Part shown: one piece after another, positions 70 to 42,284 of the stretch
Position numbering within the stretch: the stretch's first letter is position 1
Layout: the number at the start of each line of letters is the position of its first letter
Source of the DNA: Prochlorococcus sp. AG-436-C14
Lineage (GTDB): Bacteria > Cyanobacteriota > Cyanobacteriia > PCC-6307 > Cyanobiaceae
DNA length: 61,132 bases
NCBI GenBank assembly: GCA_003209755.1
Contig: QCPD01000012.1
Span: forward strand, 1-61,132
Direction of reading: 5' to 3'
Position numbers and translations under genes: made by a program
The notes under the pieces: model-generated
Told to the model about the DNA's origin: nothing
Seen by the model: the letters and a program-made list of their open reading frames with translations, nothing else
The model's database searches: none

Positions 70-100
70 AGATATAGCTATTATGCGCGCAGTTATGCGC
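70..100 (+). promoter_or_regulatory. 31-bp element upstream of an integrase remnant
   Basis: The element begins AGATATAGCTA and contains two copies of TATGCGC 11 bp apart (82-88 and 94-100). It ends 22 bp before the ATG of the integrase-like remnant at 123. A second copy, 26 of 31 positions identical and in the same orientation to its gene, precedes the other integrase remnant near the tRNA-Arg (41813-41843, minus strand). Conservation of non-coding sequence upstream of two otherwise diverged fragments suggests a promoter/operator or arm-type recombinase binding sites. The function is inferred. Confidence 0.5.
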
Positions 101-122
101 TCATTTTCAGCTCTGTAATCCA

Positions 123-576
123 ATGCGGGAACAGTGGTTTCAACTATTAAGGAAGCAACTTAAATCTGAACATGGAAAAGGTTGGGGTGTGCGCGCAATG
201 CGTGGAAAGGTTCAACTAACCCTTCGCGTGGATGAAAATGCTGGGATGAATAACCCTAGAAATTCGGTTTCTTTACCCCTTGATTGGAGCGCAGATAATC
301 AAACTAAAATTCTGAATTTTGTTAATGAAATCCGCGAGAGGATGGAAGCAAATAATCTTTCTCTTAAAGAAGCTGCAAAATTAACTTCTGAACCATTAGC
401 CGATGACCAAAATGGTTCTTAAAACTTTCTTATTTAGATCAATTGCTATCTACTTGGGAGTGCAGAAGTGGACCAACACCTTGGATATTTATGCAAGAGT
501 TTTAAGCGCGTTGTTATTAATTCGATTTGAGGATATGGAAGAAGCTATGGAAATGTTTGAGGTCAAGAGAGGTTAA
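123..576 (+). pseudogene. Tyrosine recombinase (integrase) remnant, internally deleted
   Basis: An open frame at 123-422 (99 residues) begins MREQWFQLLRKQLK and has a basic, beta-rich segment (GKVQLTLRVDE), as in the N-terminal arm-binding domain of cyanobacterial phage-type integrases. A second overlapping frame, 412-576 (54 residues), contains TNTLDIYARVLS, which resembles the C-terminal box of tyrosine recombinases carrying the nucleophile Tyr. The core catalytic R-H-R region is missing, so this reads as an integrase with most of its middle deleted and a frame change at the junction. W5, L9-R10 and L13-K14 line up exactly with the fragment at 41674-41787. The N-terminal frame alone could instead be a small DNA-binding protein. 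The integrase assignment rests on motif resemblance only. Confidence 0.5.
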
Positions 577-643: not shown

Positions 644-2230
644 ATGATTGAGAAAAAACAAAAATGTATATCTATAAATTATATAAGAATTATTGTAGCG
701 TTACTTATATTAGTTCCTTTTGTATTTCCTTTTCTTTTTAAGTTATTTCATTGGTATATTCCAGGGATTCATCCATTTCTAGACCTCAAAGGACGTCTTT
801 CTCATATAGAAGCTAATTCTTTAGGAATAAATACATATATAGAAGCAAACCCTTTAGATCCATTAAATAGAATTAACAATAAGCCATCAATTTCTTTATT
901 ACTTTCTCATACGGGAATAGGTGTTTCTGATTCTAATTGGATAGGATGGATATTGGTCTCTACATTTCTAATTCAATCAATATCGTTATTAAGGAAATGT
1001 GATTTAAAATTAATTATTGCTTGTAGTTTTTGCATACTTACTCCTAATACATTATTTGCATTAGAAAGAGGTAATGATGACTTAATTGTATTTATACTAG
1101 CTTTTGCTATACCCTATTTACTAAACAGTTTAACGAGATATTCAATATCTATTGTATCATTTATTGTAGTTATACTGGGCAGCCTAAAATACTATCCTTT
1201 CACCTTATTCTCTGTTCTTTGGTCAGATGATTTGCATAAATTATCTCAAAATTTCAGAAGATATGTATTACCATTCATTATAATTATTTGGATAATTATT
1301 TTCGGAAAAGAGATGATATTATTAAAGTCAAATTTACCATTAAACCCTCCAGGACTATCAGGATTCAATATTTCGGATGTTTCTGCTATTAACAAAATCG
1401 TTAGAGATGGAACTATTACGCACAAGAGTAAATCGCTAAATTTTTTATACAAAGAAACAGTAGGGCGAAATATTGATAATAAAAGCCTTGAATATTGGCT
1501 TAGAGAGTTGAAAAATGAACAAACAACTCTGAGAAAGATAAAACGATCAATTATTTCAACCAAAGAGTATCAAGATCGTTTGGCAGCGGTAAGAGCCAAT
1601 CCGAGCATCACTGAAGCTGAATTAGATAGACTTGATAGCGCATATAAAGATAAAGATAATAAAAATTTCGTAGATGAGGTTGAAAAGAATAAAAAATCTT
1701 TAAATTTAAATGATTTTATAAAAGAAAAAATACCTCTATTAATTTTATACATTAGTTTCTTCTTTTCTTTAACCCTAATACTTAAATATCTAAATAAAGA
1801 CAAATCAAATATTTCCGAAGAAATCTATTTAAAAACTAACAGGTTAGATAGATTATTCTATATAATGGGCGCCTCAATGTTGGTTTTCTGCTATCTAACT
1901 AGTGGTAATAATAGCTATCGAATGATACATTCCATATTTACTATCCCTTTGATAACCTCACTAATAAAGTCTCCCTTTAAAAATCCAAAACAAAATAAAT
2001 ACCGTAAAGGGGCTATAAGCCTACTTATACTTATATTGTTGAGTAACTGGATGGTTTTAATTCAATCAATACCAATAATATATCCAAATTTTCAAGGTTC
2101 ACTTTATATTATCGATAGTATCAAGATAGTTACTGATTATTGTTTATTTAGTCTTCTTGGTGCTTTTGCCTTTTTACTAATAATAAGAAGCTTTTCTTTT
2201 AAAATAAATCAAATCAAATCACAAGAATAA
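644..2230 (+). CDS. GT-C (GT87/DUF2029-like) membrane glycosyltransferase with a DUF4214-like insert
   Basis: This 528-residue polytopic membrane protein has about ten hydrophobic segments, the first at residues 10-30. The loop motif ERGNDDLIVF (residues 141-150) is typical of GT87/DUF2029 polyprenyl-phosphate-dependent mannosyltransferases, which transfer sugars on the periplasmic face. Between the transmembrane blocks, residues about 266-313 (LYKETVGRNIDNKSLEYWL, ending KEYQDRL) match the pattern of a DUF4214 repeat, usually found in secreted surface proteins. A charged linker follows (about 314-350), then the second membrane block. DUF4214 also ends the large subtilase downstream. The donor and acceptor cannot be told from sequence. 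The gene stands alone, with an AT-rich upstream region and no clear ribosome binding site. Confidence 0.6.
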   Translation: MIEKKQKCISINYIRIIVALLILVPFVFPFLFKLFHWYIPGIHPFLDLKGRLSHIEANSLGINTYIEANPLDPLNRINNKPSISLLLSHTGIGVSDSNWIGWILVSTFLIQSISLLRKCDLKLIIACSFCILTPNTLFALERGNDDLIVFILAFAIPYLLNSLTRYSISIVSFIVVILGSLKYYPFTLFSVLWSDDLHKLSQNFRRYVLPFIIIIWIIIFGKEMILLKSNLPLNPPGLSGFNISDVSAINKIVRDGTITHKSKSLNFLYKETVGRNIDNKSLEYWLRELKNEQTTLRKIKRSIISTKEYQDRLAAVRANPSITEAELDRLDSAYKDKDNKNFVDEVEKNKKSLNLNDFIKEKIPLLILYISFFFSLTLILKYLNKDKSNISEEIYLKTNRLDRLFYIMGASMLVFCYLTSGNNSYRMIHSIFTIPLITSLIKSPFKNPKQNKYRKGAISLLILILLSNWMVLIQSIPIIYPNFQGSLYIIDSIKIVTDYCLFSLLGAFAFLLIIRSFSFKINQIKSQE

Positions 2231-2618: not shown

Positions 2619-2647
2619 CACTATATCTTGGGTTATCAGATATAGTG
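2619..2647. repeat. Perfect 10-bp inverted repeat
   Basis: CACTATATCT (2619-2628) and AGATATAGTG (2638-2647) are separated by 9 nt. No T run follows on either side, so it is not an obvious terminator. It lies in the gene-free stretch 2561-2859 upstream of the subtilase and could be an operator or an RNA hairpin. Confidence 0.5.
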
Positions 2648-2737
2648 TTCAAGTATGCGGCCTTACATTATTTAAGGTGCTTTTAAGGGGTTAGCTTTGA
2701 ATCTATAACTAAAATATTCACGAATTTACTAGCTTCA

Positions 2738-2778
2738 TGACAAGCAGGTGGTCAGTGGCTCGAGTCCGCTTGACTCCA
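2738..2778 (+). other. Possible tRNA 3'-end remnant
   Basis: AGTGG-CTCGAGT-CCGCT folds as a 5-bp stem with a 7-nt loop close to the tRNA T-loop consensus. It is followed by TGACTCCA, like a 3' acceptor strand with a discriminator base, and preceded by GGTGGTC, like a variable loop. No 5' half is visible, and the anticodon region is too degraded to assign an isotype. Such a 3' fragment could be an attachment-site scar, or chance. The rest of 2561-2859 holds only the inverted repeat at 2619-2647. Confidence 0.25.
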
Positions 2779-2859
2779 TAATTATTTTTAGCATGTATAG
2801 AATTTATAGAAAAACTATTATTAGTTAACCTTTTGCTGTAATGTTTTTATGGTTTTTAT

Positions 2860-17010: not shown

Positions 17011-18681
17011 TTGAGCTTTCGTATGAGTAATACATACCAAATAAGCACGATTAGAAGCCTAATTGATAAACACTTTTCTCTCCAATGGTGTAGGGAAAAT
17101 GTTGTCATCCCATTAAAAATTGAACCTAGCTTGCCTCCCAAAAGTCAGGTAATAACTATTGCAGTAGGTAATATTTCATATCTTGGAACTATTGGAAATA
17201 TTATAAAGCAACGTCTTTCTAGCAATGGCTTTGATTGTGTCTTTATAGAGATTTCTCCCGATGAAATACAGTCTTATCTTGATCAAGCCTCTAATGAGAG
17301 GATATTTAGTAGTGAAGGAATAGAAAATTATGATTTTTCAGAGGATGATGTAATTAAATCATTAATTGATGCATCTGAGGAAGAAGGTTCTGATACTGTA
17401 GAAGGTTTCGATTTTGATGATAGTGATGATGGTGAATTTTACGTAGAAGAAATTGATTTATCAACTGAAATGCTTGGTAATAAGATACAAAGAGCCGCCG
17501 CTACAGTTCTAATAGATTCATGTAAAAAAGGTGCATCTGATATACATATTGAGCCACATGAAAAATATATAAAAATAAGACTTAGGAGAGATGGTGTACT
17601 TCAAAATTATGTAACAATTCCAAAAATACCAGGCCTTAAATTAACAGCTTGTCTAAAAAATATGGCAAAAATGGATATTGCTGAAAAAAGAGCATCACAA
17701 GACGGCAAGATTAGAAGAAAATTTGAAAATCAATCTCTTGATTTTAGGTGCTCAACTGCTCCAGGTAAATATGGCGAAAAGATGGTTCTTAGATACTTAA
17801 ATAATGATACTGATGTCCTTAATTTAGATACATTGATTGATAATGAACAAGTTAGGTCTGATTTTAGAAAAATTATTAATCAAGCCAATGGTATTGTCAT
17901 TGTTTCTGGTCCAACAGGATCAGGTAAATCAACCACTTTAGCCTCAGCTTTAAGAGAAAAGGATAATGGTGAACTTAATATAATGACAGCAGAAGATCCT
18001 ATTGAATATGATATGGGTGGAGATATTCAACAATTTCAGGTTCTCAAAGCAAAAGGTCAGACATTTGCAAATTTCCTGAGAACTTTTCTTCGTCAGGACC
18101 CTGATGTGATTCTTATTGGTGAAACCCGAGATCCTGAAACTGCAGAATCCTCAATGGATGCTGCTGAAACAGGGCATTTAGTTTTTACTACTTTACATGC
18201 AAATAGTGCTTCAACTTCTCTCACAAGATTATTAGATATGGAGGTACCCCCATATAAATTAACAGCTTCATTAAGAGGAGTTTTGGCTCAAAGATTGTTA
18301 AGAAAAGTATGTCCTAGCTGTAGCGTTGAGAGACCATTGGATGATGCAGAGGCAGAATTTACAGGATTAAGAATTGGCACACCAGTAAGATGCGCTAACT
18401 GTTTGAGCGCTGATGAAAAGATACAAAGAAAAAAGGAAGGAATACTTTGTAATAGATGTCTCGGTACGGGATATAAAGGACGTGTAGGAACATATGAATT
18501 ATTAAAAATTTCAAGACCAATTTCAAATGCAATAAGAAAACAACTTTCTACCCAAGAGATAGAGGAAATAGCTATTTCTGAGGGGATGATAAGTTTAAAA
18601 GCCTATGGTGTAAAACTTATAGAACAGAAACTTACAACTGTTTCAGAATTAAGTAAAATTTGCAATGATGATCATAATTAA
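17011..18681 (+). CDS. pilB: Type IV pilus assembly ATPase PilB (GspE family)
   Basis: The 556-residue cytoplasmic hexameric ATPase powers pilus extension. An N-terminal domain with an acidic linker (about residues 115-150) precedes the core with Walker A GPTGSGKST (300-308, Lys306). An Asp box (AEDPIEYDM), Walker B (PDVILIGETRDPETA) and His box (GHLVFTTLHANSAST) follow. A four-Cys zinc site (CPSC, CANC, CNRC region) is typical of PilB/GspE rather than PilT. Start is TTG at 17011 touching the previous stop, or ATG at 17023. It is followed after 24 bp by pilT. Confidence 0.92.
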   Translation: MSFRMSNTYQISTIRSLIDKHFSLQWCRENVVIPLKIEPSLPPKSQVITIAVGNISYLGTIGNIIKQRLSSNGFDCVFIEISPDEIQSYLDQASNERIFSSEGIENYDFSEDDVIKSLIDASEEEGSDTVEGFDFDDSDDGEFYVEEIDLSTEMLGNKIQRAAATVLIDSCKKGASDIHIEPHEKYIKIRLRRDGVLQNYVTIPKIPGLKLTACLKNMAKMDIAEKRASQDGKIRRKFENQSLDFRCSTAPGKYGEKMVLRYLNNDTDVLNLDTLIDNEQVRSDFRKIINQANGIVIVSGPTGSGKSTTLASALREKDNGELNIMTAEDPIEYDMGGDIQQFQVLKAKGQTFANFLRTFLRQDPDVILIGETRDPETAESSMDAAETGHLVFTTLHANSASTSLTRLLDMEVPPYKLTASLRGVLAQRLLRKVCPSCSVERPLDDAEAEFTGLRIGTPVRCANCLSADEKIQRKKEGILCNRCLGTGYKGRVGTYELLKISRPISNAIRKQLSTQEIEEIAISEGMISLKAYGVKLIEQKLTTVSELSKICNDDHN

Positions 18682-39771: not shown

Positions 39772-39826
39772 AGTACGCTCCCTGCAAGATTCGAACTTGC
39801 ACCCCACTGTTTAGAAGGCAGTTGCT
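39772..39826 (-). repeat. Partial copy of the tRNA-Arg 3' half
   Basis: The segment matches 41911-41965 at 52 of 55 positions. It covers the T-arm, variable region and anticodon arm of tRNA-Arg(TCT), plus 4 bp beyond the 3' end, and then diverges. It has no 5' half, so it cannot make a tRNA. Direct-repeat copies of a tRNA 3' end are the usual scar of tyrosine-recombinase integration. It belongs to the gene-free stretch 39567-40206. Confidence 0.85.
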
Positions 39827-39981
39827 TTTCTCTTGTAAAGCATTGGTATAACTAGGTTTGGTAATAAGTATTACAAAGTTATGCTCATCAAGGTGTGCAC
39901 CATATCCATATCAATATTAATTAAAACTATTCAGTCTATAAATATATTTTACCACTTTATTTCTTATTTGTTTATACAAAA

Positions 39982-40167
39982 AAAGCCAATAAACAAGAGA
40001 TGGAATTAACGGCAGACTTTGCCGCTGACTTACTTGCTTAAGGAAATAGTTGCACCGTAGTAACGACCCTAGTGACCGAAGAGTATGAATTAAGTAGAAA
40101 ATAAGCTCGAAGAATTACAACGAAGGCAATGGACTTGTTTACTTAAGACTTTGAGGAGGTCCATCTA
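39982..40167 (+). pseudogene. Decayed copy 3 of an HTH-like island gene
   Basis: One continuous frame reads KANKQEMELTADFAADLLA, stop, GNSCTVVTTLVTEEYELSRK, stop, ARRITTKAMDLFT, stop, DFEEVH. The three stops are all TAA, at positions that are Lys or Gln in copy 2 (36429). Each is therefore one substitution from a sense codon. It has no indel, unlike the other copies, and its C-terminal half is missing. It lies between the tRNA-Arg half copy and the epimerase gene. Confidence 0.65.
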
Positions 40168-40206
40168 TCTATTAAGAATAAACATATTGATTATAAATTT
40201 TGTTTT

Positions 40207-41199
40207 TTACAATTGATTCTTTAAAGCCCACATCCATGTTTCAGTTAGACCAGCTTCTAAAGTTACTTTTGGATGGAAGTTTAAATGATCTCTTGCTTTC
40301 TCAATTGATGGAAGTCTTCTTGTGGGTTCATCTTCAGGATAATATTCTGGATATGGAGTTAATTTATAACTTAGATCTATATTAATTGTTTTTCGAAATA
40401 ATTTAACTAAATCTATCATCGATATTTCAGGTTTGTCATTGCCAATATTATAAGTTTCGCCATAAACTCCATTTTTTATAACTTTTATTATCCCCTCAAT
40501 TGCATCTGTATAATAACAAAAAGTTCTTGTCTGATTACCATTACCATATATACTAACTGCCTGCATTCTTAATGCAGATTTAATTAAATTGGGAATCATT
40601 CTATAGTCTGTCTCGATAGACATACTTGGTCCATAAATATTAAAAGGTCTAATTATATTTGTACTTATGTTGTATTTTTTATTATATATATAGCACAAAG
40701 TCTCTCCAAGTCTTTTGCTTTCGTCATAACAAGATCTTGATCCTTGACATGAAACATATCCTTTATATTCTTCATTTGTAGGGATATTATCTGGTGAGGG
40801 ATTACCATAAATTTCGGATGAAGAGAAGAATATAAATCTTGCCTTCCAATCTTTACATTTTTCTAGTAATTTCCGTGTAACTTTTGTGCCAATGTCTACT
40901 GTCTCAAGAGGATATTTATTATAGTAGAAAGGGCTGGCTAAACTAGCCAGGTGAATAATAGTATCAAAATCTTGTAGTTGATCTAAGTCAAATTTAATTA
41001 AATCAGCTTCGATGAATTTATATTTAGAATTACTTGTATAAAGATTTGACTTATTAGAACTAATGAAATTGTCTATACCTGTGATATTAGTAATTGAATT
41101 GAACTGATTTGAATTTATAATTTTAGATAAAAGATGTTTCCCTAAGAATCCATTAGAGCCTGTCAGAAGAATTTTTTTCACCAATTTTTTCACACTCAC
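40207..41199 (-). CDS. NAD-dependent sugar epimerase/dehydratase, UDP-glucuronate decarboxylase-like
   Basis: The 330-residue short-chain dehydrogenase has an N-terminal Rossmann motif (LLTGSNGFLGKHLLSK). A Ser-rich SSSEIYGNP strand and the catalytic YDESKRLGE (Tyr and Lys, YxxxK) follow, with IRPFNIYGPSM and RTFCYYTDAIEGI later. GSRSCYDESKR resembles UDP-glucuronate decarboxylases (UXS, making UDP-xylose), but dehydratase or epimerase activity is possible. The enzyme supplies a nucleotide sugar for surface glycans. It lies between the tRNA-Arg half copy and the intact tRNA-Arg, so it may be the cargo of an inserted element. Confidence 0.85.
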   Translation of the reverse strand: MSVKKLVKKILLTGSNGFLGKHLLSKIINSNQFNSITNITGIDNFISSNKSNLYTSNSKYKFIEADLIKFDLDQLQDFDTIIHLASLASPFYYNKYPLETVDIGTKVTRKLLEKCKDWKARFIFFSSSEIYGNPSPDNIPTNEEYKGYVSCQGSRSCYDESKRLGETLCYIYNKKYNISTNIIRPFNIYGPSMSIETDYRMIPNLIKSALRMQAVSIYGNGNQTRTFCYYTDAIEGIIKVIKNGVYGETYNIGNDKPEISMIDLVKLFRKTINIDLSYKLTPYPEYYPEDEPTRRLPSIEKARDHLNFHPKVTLEAGLTETWMWALKNQL

Positions 41200-41673
41200 C
41201 TTTCCGATTATATGTTATGGAAGAACTATTACAAAAACATTAGATTTCCTTTTGACTTATTTTACTTTCATGAATTAACTTCAAAATATATATTAAGGAT
41301 TTTAAGAGATGTTTTTTTAATTATCTCTCGTATTATGATGTAAAAATTTGAATACGAATTGATTGAATTTATAATTTATTGAGCTGTAAATAATTATTTA
41401 TGATATAGAGTTGAAAATAGCTTGGGGCAAAAAACTAATTATCTTATTTAGAAAAATTTATACTGAAGATTTTTCTAGAAGTCTGCTAATTTCTACAGTA
41501 GTGATAAAATCTAATGATTTTTGATATCATTTTTAATTAAATCTTAAAATGATTCCATAACTAAATATATTGGTTCCTTATCTGGTTTGACTGGGATTGA
41601 TATTCATACCTTTCTTGGAAAATTACGATAATTCCAATTTTTATAAAATTTCAAAGGACAAGTTTCTAGATTA
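41200..41673. other. Intergenic stretch without a supported gene
   Basis: This is AT-rich DNA between the epimerase start and the integrase remnant. I see only short, random-looking frames, no clear hairpin terminator, and no tRNA or repeat. It should include the epimerase promoter near 41200-41300. Confidence 0.5.
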
Positions 41674-41787
41674 TCAATAACAATCATTCAATCGGACGTG
41701 CCAAAAATTCCCACGGCGAAGGAAATCAGGATCTTTCTCCAAGTTTTTTAAAATTGTGCGCAGATTTTCATACCACTTAGCTTTCAT
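41674..41787 (-). pseudogene. Integrase N-terminal fragment beside tRNA-Arg
   Basis: Thirty-seven codons read MKAKWYENLRTILKNLEKDP then DFLRRGNFWHVRLNDCY and stop. W5, L9-R10 and L13-K14 coincide with the integrase-like remnant at 123, and the basic RRGNFWHVRL strand fits an arm-binding domain. It is preceded by the same 31-bp element found upstream of that remnant. It points away from the tRNA-Arg gene on the same strand. Everything after the N-terminal domain is lost. Confidence 0.5.
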
Positions 41788-41812
41788 TTTGTGCTTGCAA
41801 TGGTTTCAGCGT

Positions 41813-41843
41813 GTGCATATCTGTGCGCATATTAGCCATATCT
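41813..41843 (-). promoter_or_regulatory. Second copy of the 31-bp element upstream of an integrase remnant
   Basis: Reading on the minus strand from 41843, it begins AGATATGGCTAATATGCGC and carries a second TATGCAC 12 bases after the first TATGCGC. It ends 25 bp before the ATG at 41787 and differs at 5 of 31 positions from bases 70-100. Shared orientation and spacing support function in expression or recombination of the integrase. Confidence 0.5.
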
Positions 41844-41914
41844 AGCCATAGCCAGCTATGCAGTAGTTCTTAGTGGAATTACTGTAACCTCTTGTTATTA
41901 CTTGGGTTTAAGTA

Positions 41915-41988
<74 letters not shown>

Positions 41989-42284
41989 AGAGTGACTTTT
42001 GAGTGTTTTTTTACTCCTCTGATTGCTGAGAAATTAAAACCACAAAAATCAACTAACTAACATTACATACTCATATAACCATCTACAACTAGAATTAAGC
42101 AGATCAACAAGAGAAATTAAAATGGTCGTTCCCACATCATCCCGCTTGGTTGTCATAGTTCATTGCAGCAATAATTTTTTGGATTTTCAATAAAAAGAAT
42201 TAGATGAATTTCAAATAATACTCATCATGATTTTTTCTACTTAATATGATTAGGTCTTATCTTGGATAGATAGAGGTTACAGAG

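Follow-up and report, generated by a model that had tools for sequence, protein, structure and literature searches.

Paired 12-bp repeats beside two integrase remnants of Prochlorococcus: probable arm-type sites on relict tRNA cassettes

A repeated non-coding element ahead of two integrase remnants

The 61,132-nucleotide contig QCPD01000012.1 of Prochlorococcus sp. AG-436-C14 (assembly GCA_003209755.1), hereafter the window, is the entire contig C12, so that its base 1 is a contig end. It raises the question of why a 31-bp non-coding element should be kept ahead of two short open reading frames, at 70-100 (+) and 41813-41843 (-). The two copies are indeed identical at 26 of 31 positions, as had been read from the letters of the window, and each has an 11-bp AT-rich prefix, AGATATRGCTA, followed by two 12-bp direct repeats; the two reported reading frames also exist, at 123-422 (+; 99 residues) and 41674-41787 (-; 37 residues). 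The original prediction offered recombinase arm sites, an operator or a promoter as explanations. We consider that the elements are, with a probability of about 0.87, the integrase-proximal arm-type sites of a family of lambda-Int-like tyrosine recombinases, both on relict tRNA cassettes. Of the proposed roles, arm sites is the one strongly supported at the level of sequence, by the location of the repeat pair in intact members of the family, by a copy at the far end of their elements and by co-variation with the N-terminal domain of the integrase.

The 19-bp pattern AGATATRGCTAWTATGCGC matches the 1.72-Mb assembly (52 contigs, 94% complete) exactly at two places, both of them window copies, with none for the backward control and with three further matches at two to three mismatches (C11, C12:36773 and C21). 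No tRNA was called at L003 and L005, which are loci of these other copies, in a scan that left out L004. Each element was said to carry two TATGCRC-type repeats, and TMTGCRC-N5-TMTGCRC occurs exactly at the two window elements and nowhere else in the genome, with four matches at one mismatch (backward control, one). Across 400 genomes of the host's family, its own included and drawn evenly from a larger group, a motif search gave 13 matches in 11 genomes. Matches in G210, G135 and G123 look unrelated and their fetched loci lack a tRNA; at L010, L011 and L014 tRNA calling was negative, yet truncated tRNA copies are present.

Both remnants are cassette ends

By searching the genome with both tRNA sequences we located distal copies of the tRNA 3' parts at 2733-2779 and 39773-39826. 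Both integrase remnants therefore mark an end of a cassette (A, 1-2779; B, 39773-41989), and in each case the opposite end, missed by the original prediction, is also in the window. The features are given below in their order within each cassette.

Cassette A, at tRNA-Ala
81..104, +, putative near arm pair: two 12-bp units, TTATGCGCGCAG and TTATGCGCTCAT; AT-rich prefix at 70-80
123..422, +, integrase remnant: 99 residues (99 codons), N-terminal domain only
644..2230, +, cargo open reading frame: 528 residues; weak DUF4214 match under the curated cut-off
2640..2661, +, putative far arm pair, decayed; intact pair in G086, G302 and one G161 copy
2733..2779, +, distal att core: copy of the tRNA-Ala 3' part, 85%

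Cassette B, at tRNA-Arg
41914..41989, -, tRNA-Arg(TCT): target gene and near core
41809..41832, -, putative near arm pair: two 12-bp units, ATATGCGCACAG and ATATGCACACGC; prefix at 41833-41843
41674..41787, -, integrase remnant: 37 residues (37 codons)
40207..41199, -, cargo: NAD-dependent epimerase/dehydratase family protein, 330 residues
39880..39903, -, putative far arm pair, decayed; intact in G086 and G241
39773..39826, -, distal att core: copy of the tRNA-Arg 3' part, 94%

The tRNA-Ala of cassette A would sit beyond the left edge of the contig; it is present in G302 and G086. Both cassettes keep att sites without intact recombination genes; past position 422 no convincing match to a continuation of the integrase was found, and the 94%-complete assembly holds no intact member of this integrase family. 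Because the far pairs have decayed, both cassettes are probably fossils and probably immobile.

Two side observations concern this genome. The core copy of cassette B, taken as 39784-39841 (-), scores 30.0 against the Rfam tRNA cut-off of 29 bits, so barely above it that the copy could be misannotated as a tRNA. A different tyrosine recombinase is encoded by a 390-residue frame at G000 C6:89023-89481 (L006, L274).

The remnants belong to a family of tyrosine recombinases

The 99-residue remnant corresponds to the N-terminal portion of ∼430-residue tyrosine recombinases, with matches in 176 of the 400 genomes, many of them within open frames of 400-480 residues. The second short frame had been called an integrase remnant at a tRNA-Arg, which is borne out by 20 of 32 identical residues with the N terminus of the intact integrase of Prochlorococcus AG-402-B05 (E=6e-13, single comparison) and by the adjacent tRNA-Arg(TCT). 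Tyrosine recombinases share the catalytic motif R, K, R, H, Y, and most have a histidine at the first position of box II; across 19 aligned sequences of the present family R257, K277, R369, H395 and Y404 are invariant and the first box-II position is Y366. Two of four proteins match Pfam Phage_integrase at E ∼0.002, under the cut-off, and the other two have no match, and PHROGs names all three scanned proteins as integrase. Every one of the 31 loci that lie in named genomes is cyanobacterial, chiefly from Prochlorococcus, Synechococcus and Cyanobium; the integrase was not found in viral contigs (one of 8 scans) or phage records (one query), nor by a PDB sequence search with one query. A full-length model (predicted local distance difference test, 84.5; predicted template modelling score, 0.53) matches the fold of lambda Int, XerA, Cre and the Tn1549 integrase. 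The N-terminal arm-binding domain of lambda-like integrases consists of three strands and a helix, and the N-domain of the family is predicted as strand-strand-strand-helix, the domain model on its own giving no significant fold match.

A repeat pair precedes intact integrases

Among the 150-bp regions upstream of 30 homologs, many contain a tandem pair whose unit varies between integrases and is alike within each pair, as in TTCTGCGCACAA, TTTGGCGCACAA, TTCTGCTCTAAA and ATCCCGCCACGA. The expectation that the exact motif would stand before intact integrases fails as worded: the whole 31-bp motif scores 17-22/31 at 19 intact integrase loci and likewise 17-22 at shuffled loci, and we rejected it as a conserved unit, the recurring part being the 12-bp repeat pair.

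To the 30 automatically obtained loci were added 60 regions chosen from the match list, mostly with open frames of at least 390 residues. The 136 integrase starts fell to 94 when shared N termini were removed, two short flanks were dropped, and an 85% cut left 72 non-redundant flanks, of which 63 belong to full-length integrases. With pair periods and windows set after inspection of the flanks, a 12-bp repeat is significant against shuffles (p<0.05) in 52 of the 72 and the best period is 12 in 33, compared with 13 and 15, respectively, of 200 control flanks of other long open frames. For the 48 full-length integrases that have a pair, the consensus lies near TTCTGCGC-N-A-A and the pair ends a median of 26.5 bp (range 4-115) before the int start codon.

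Other spacings were also seen. Pairs of 13 bp occur at L055(-), L069, L070, L077 and L157, several with a unit like AGAAATCAGACT. The best period is 10 in 17 of the 72 flanks, which in the flanks inspected stems from TTGATA-like repeats; such a 10-bp-phased repeat lies directly upstream of the pair in flanks such as L024 and L029, and at about 50-80 in the window, and is possibly a set of directionality-factor sites or a promoter.

A second pair at the far core, and co-variation with the N-domain

In an excised element, arm-type repeats flank the core on both sides. We searched long contigs for the core, seen as two direct copies of the tRNA 3' part, together with a second pair. The core repeat was found in 23 of 63 rows, and 18 were analysed (excluding L069-, two L071 rows, L079 and L163-), one of which has no arm pair, leaving 17 elements. 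A far pair on the same strand begins 51-116 bp before the far core in 15 of the 17, each at p=0.01, the minimum with 100 shuffles, so that the core is flanked on both sides in these 15; the gap between near core and near pair in the same elements is 86-142 bp. In the element of Synechococcus RCC307, at a tRNA-Val with a 44-bp repeat, the two pairs lie at -83 and +10120 relative to the start of int. A pair fits the far end of its own element better than do the pairs of other elements (mean 0.81 versus 0.56, permutation p=1e-4).

In the 48 integrases the distance between pairs correlates with the distance between N-domains (Mantel r=0.51), and continues to do so once the catalytic (0.45) or the middle domain (0.49) is removed, whereas neither the catalytic nor the middle domain adds anything when the N-domain is known (partial Mantel r=0.03 and -0.02).

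The N-terminal domain of lambda Int grips the arm sites and its catalytic part acts at the core. By this analogy, the present family of picocyanobacterial recombinases would integrate into the 3' part of tRNA genes, the N-terminal domain holding one pair per end in intact elements while the catalytic part exchanges strands at the tRNA core. The relict cassettes have kept the tRNA-derived cores, the putative near arms, decayed far arms, a cargo gene and only the start of the integrase. The sequence itself establishes the pair and its location, the copy of the pair at the far end, the cores, the way the cassettes are built and the lack of an intact family integrase in the assembly; we infer that the integrase binds the pair, that the cassettes moved in the past and that the int promoter is overlapped by the arm site.

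Several observations weigh against the assignment as arm sites. No significant 12-bp pair is present in 20 of the 72 flanks, some of which carry 13-bp pairs instead, and two of the 17 elements (L157 and L167) lack a far pair. The element's own pair is best or tied at its far end in just 11 of 17. The neighbouring 32-bp segment follows the N-domain as well, though less closely (r=0.29), which means that shared descent contributes. The fold search with the N-domain gave no known arm-binding domain among the matches listed, and in an assembly of 52 contigs that is 94% complete an integrase could be missed. Finally, inverted copies of the pair lie inside 10 of the 17 elements (L055, L142, L143, L144, L146, L147, L149, L158, L177 and L179), for the most part at a distance of 2.0-2.4 or 4.6-4.9 kb from where int begins, compared with an expectation of 0.02-0.21 per element, and arm sites alone leave these unexplained.

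Some of the inverted copies adjoin a helicase gene or the end of a small gene, and they may link the integrase to other genes of the element; two scanned elements carry helicases, of the AAA_25 (L147) and VapE-like (L143) types.

Related cassettes share their ends and differ in cargo

Among the 41 genomes of the genus, with that of the host counted, 20 have the near end of cassette B and 31 the far end with its core, many of the latter matches covering the tRNA part only. Eight tRNA-Arg cassettes, the window's included, have both ends recognised; with a ninth, whose near end is unrecognisable, the far ends are alike in 36/36 pairs and the near ends in 26/36. At tRNA-Arg, tandem arrays running from far end to core to next near end are present in G173, G224 and G196. 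Inside the nine cassettes the integrase profile (E up to 0.01) found only decayed pieces in G354, and ten tRNA-Arg near ends mostly retain int for its initial 45-95 nt, beyond which they diverge, with breakpoints placed by eye. The cargo includes an FkbM-type methyltransferase in G086; in G173 the starts of the proteins, read alone, suggest oxidoreductase, KDO-synthesis and pyruvate-kinase-like genes. It is partly shared: five tRNA-Arg cassettes have sequences in common, and the window interior has one to two uninspected matches to each of four others. At tRNA-Ala the ends of the window cassette are common to G302 and G086, its middle (409-2456) is unmatched in the 11 loci searched, and G161 has a tandem array. 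That the non-coding DNA is better conserved than the coding fragments, as first noticed in the window, therefore holds, for the reason that fixed ends surround different cargo. Purifying selection on the arms of integrase-less cassettes found no support, as these are intact, decayed or one unit shorter depending on the copy.

Two histories could give rise to such cassettes. The chances are about even that complete elements inserted and then separately lost the integrase and inner genes, with no integrase-less cassette ever moving; the remnants differ in length (99 and 37 residues in the window), longer decayed integrases persist in G302 and G354, and several copies have decayed arms or have lost one unit. 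Set against this history are the near ends at tRNA-Arg, most of which stop within the same short stretch of int, and the recurrence of the same ends around different interiors, also in tandem. We propose only tentatively, and at somewhat less than even odds, that the cassettes are a non-autonomous family spreading as integrase-less units, on which the integrases of intact relatives act in trans and which they stack in tandem. The core, the arm pairs and approximately the first 20 int codons would be the fixed ends, between which cargo is swapped, and tandem stacking at tRNA-Arg and tRNA-Ala would help to build the genomic islands of Prochlorococcus.

Other roles for the repeat pair

The near pair stands directly before int, where the promoter could be, so that autoregulation is possible in intact elements and an overlap of arm site and int promoter is plausible. 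KplE1 provides a case in which an arm site and the -10 box of intS overlap (PMC2951348), and this precedent lends some plausibility to the operator or promoter of the original prediction, although consensus promoter scans of the window were negative, scans that may miss cyanobacterial promoters. That the element is mainly an int operator or promoter, at which the bound pair represses the integrase gene, is compatible with a role as arm site and is in our view unlikely. It would suit the short distance from pair to int start in the 48 integrases and the shared direction of tRNA and int in both window cassettes, an arrangement predicted to be autoregulated in PMC2951348. However, in 15 of the 17 elements there is a pair at the distant core, away from int, which disfavours the operator or promoter as the sole role.

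Binding of the pairs by another protein of the element, such as a small helix-turn-helix protein or replication initiator that uses them as regulator sites or iterons, would suit the inverted copies in 10 of 17 elements, some by a helicase gene or small-gene end, and the helicases of the parent elements, but is very improbable given that the pairs keep a fixed place beside both cores and co-vary with the integrase N-domain with the catalytic domain removed, the integrase alone having been compared in this way.

Relation to known elements

As putative arm-type sites, the pairs resemble those of lambda Int and KplE1 IntS (PMC2951348), in which short direct repeats flank the core with one set beside int; the full-length model matches the fold of lambda Int as well. 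In contrast to lambda-like arm sites, the picocyanobacterial family has 12-bp pairs at both ends, and its integrase falls under the Pfam cut-off. Retained att sites and cargo, an absence of recombination genes and occurrence in tandem are described for the cis-mobilizable elements (CIMEs) of Streptococcus salivarius (PMC7563491) and for the ssrA islands of Dehalococcoides that have no int (PMC3146451); arm sites and integrase-less islands are already known kinds. The window cassettes are similar in keeping att sites and cargo without intact recombination genes and in having relatives in tandem. By structure a cassette may work like a CIME, a class which is itself defined by derivation from, and mobilisation together with, integrative and conjugative or integrative and mobilizable elements; the intact relatives here carry int, and helicases in two scanned elements.

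A picocyanobacterial integrase family described in PMC10187409 is a tyrosine recombinase beside tRNAs in islands of Prochlorococcus and Synechococcus. It stands there by tRNA-Phe or tRNA-Cys, whereas our annotated loci are by tRNA-Ala, -Arg and -Val, a separation made by location only. A literature search gave no title or abstract on arm sites of the present family, with thin coverage of subscription papers, and we do not claim that such sites are unpublished.

Tycheposons (Hackl et al. 2023) are reportedly elements of Prochlorococcus with tRNA targets, a tyrosine recombinase and variable cargo. The elements studied here share these features, a likeness by description only, and arm sites go unmentioned in the consulted passages on tycheposons.

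A rule of sequence emerges from the comparison: inward of each tRNA-derived core lies a short directly repeated pair, whose period is usually 12 bp and whose unit is matched to the integrase N-domain. With this rule one can look in Prochlorococcus and Synechococcus for the ends of integrative elements, including integrase-less cassettes that integrase searches overlook. If it is right, one can ask which integrase could move which cassette and how island cargo is exchanged in these very abundant phototrophs, and the same ends around other cargo in relatives hint at a route of gene exchange in marine cyanobacterial genomes.

Minor features

A terminator-like hairpin at 85-100 overlaps the pair of cassette A (one match, 0.1 expected); because the pair of cassette B has no such hairpin, we regard the one in cassette A as a side effect of the GCGC repeats. 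Integrase matches in head-to-head pairs were seen in G302 C14 (about 17533-18447), G115 C1, G285 C75 and G378 C25, and those of G302 sit on either side of one tRNA-Ala.
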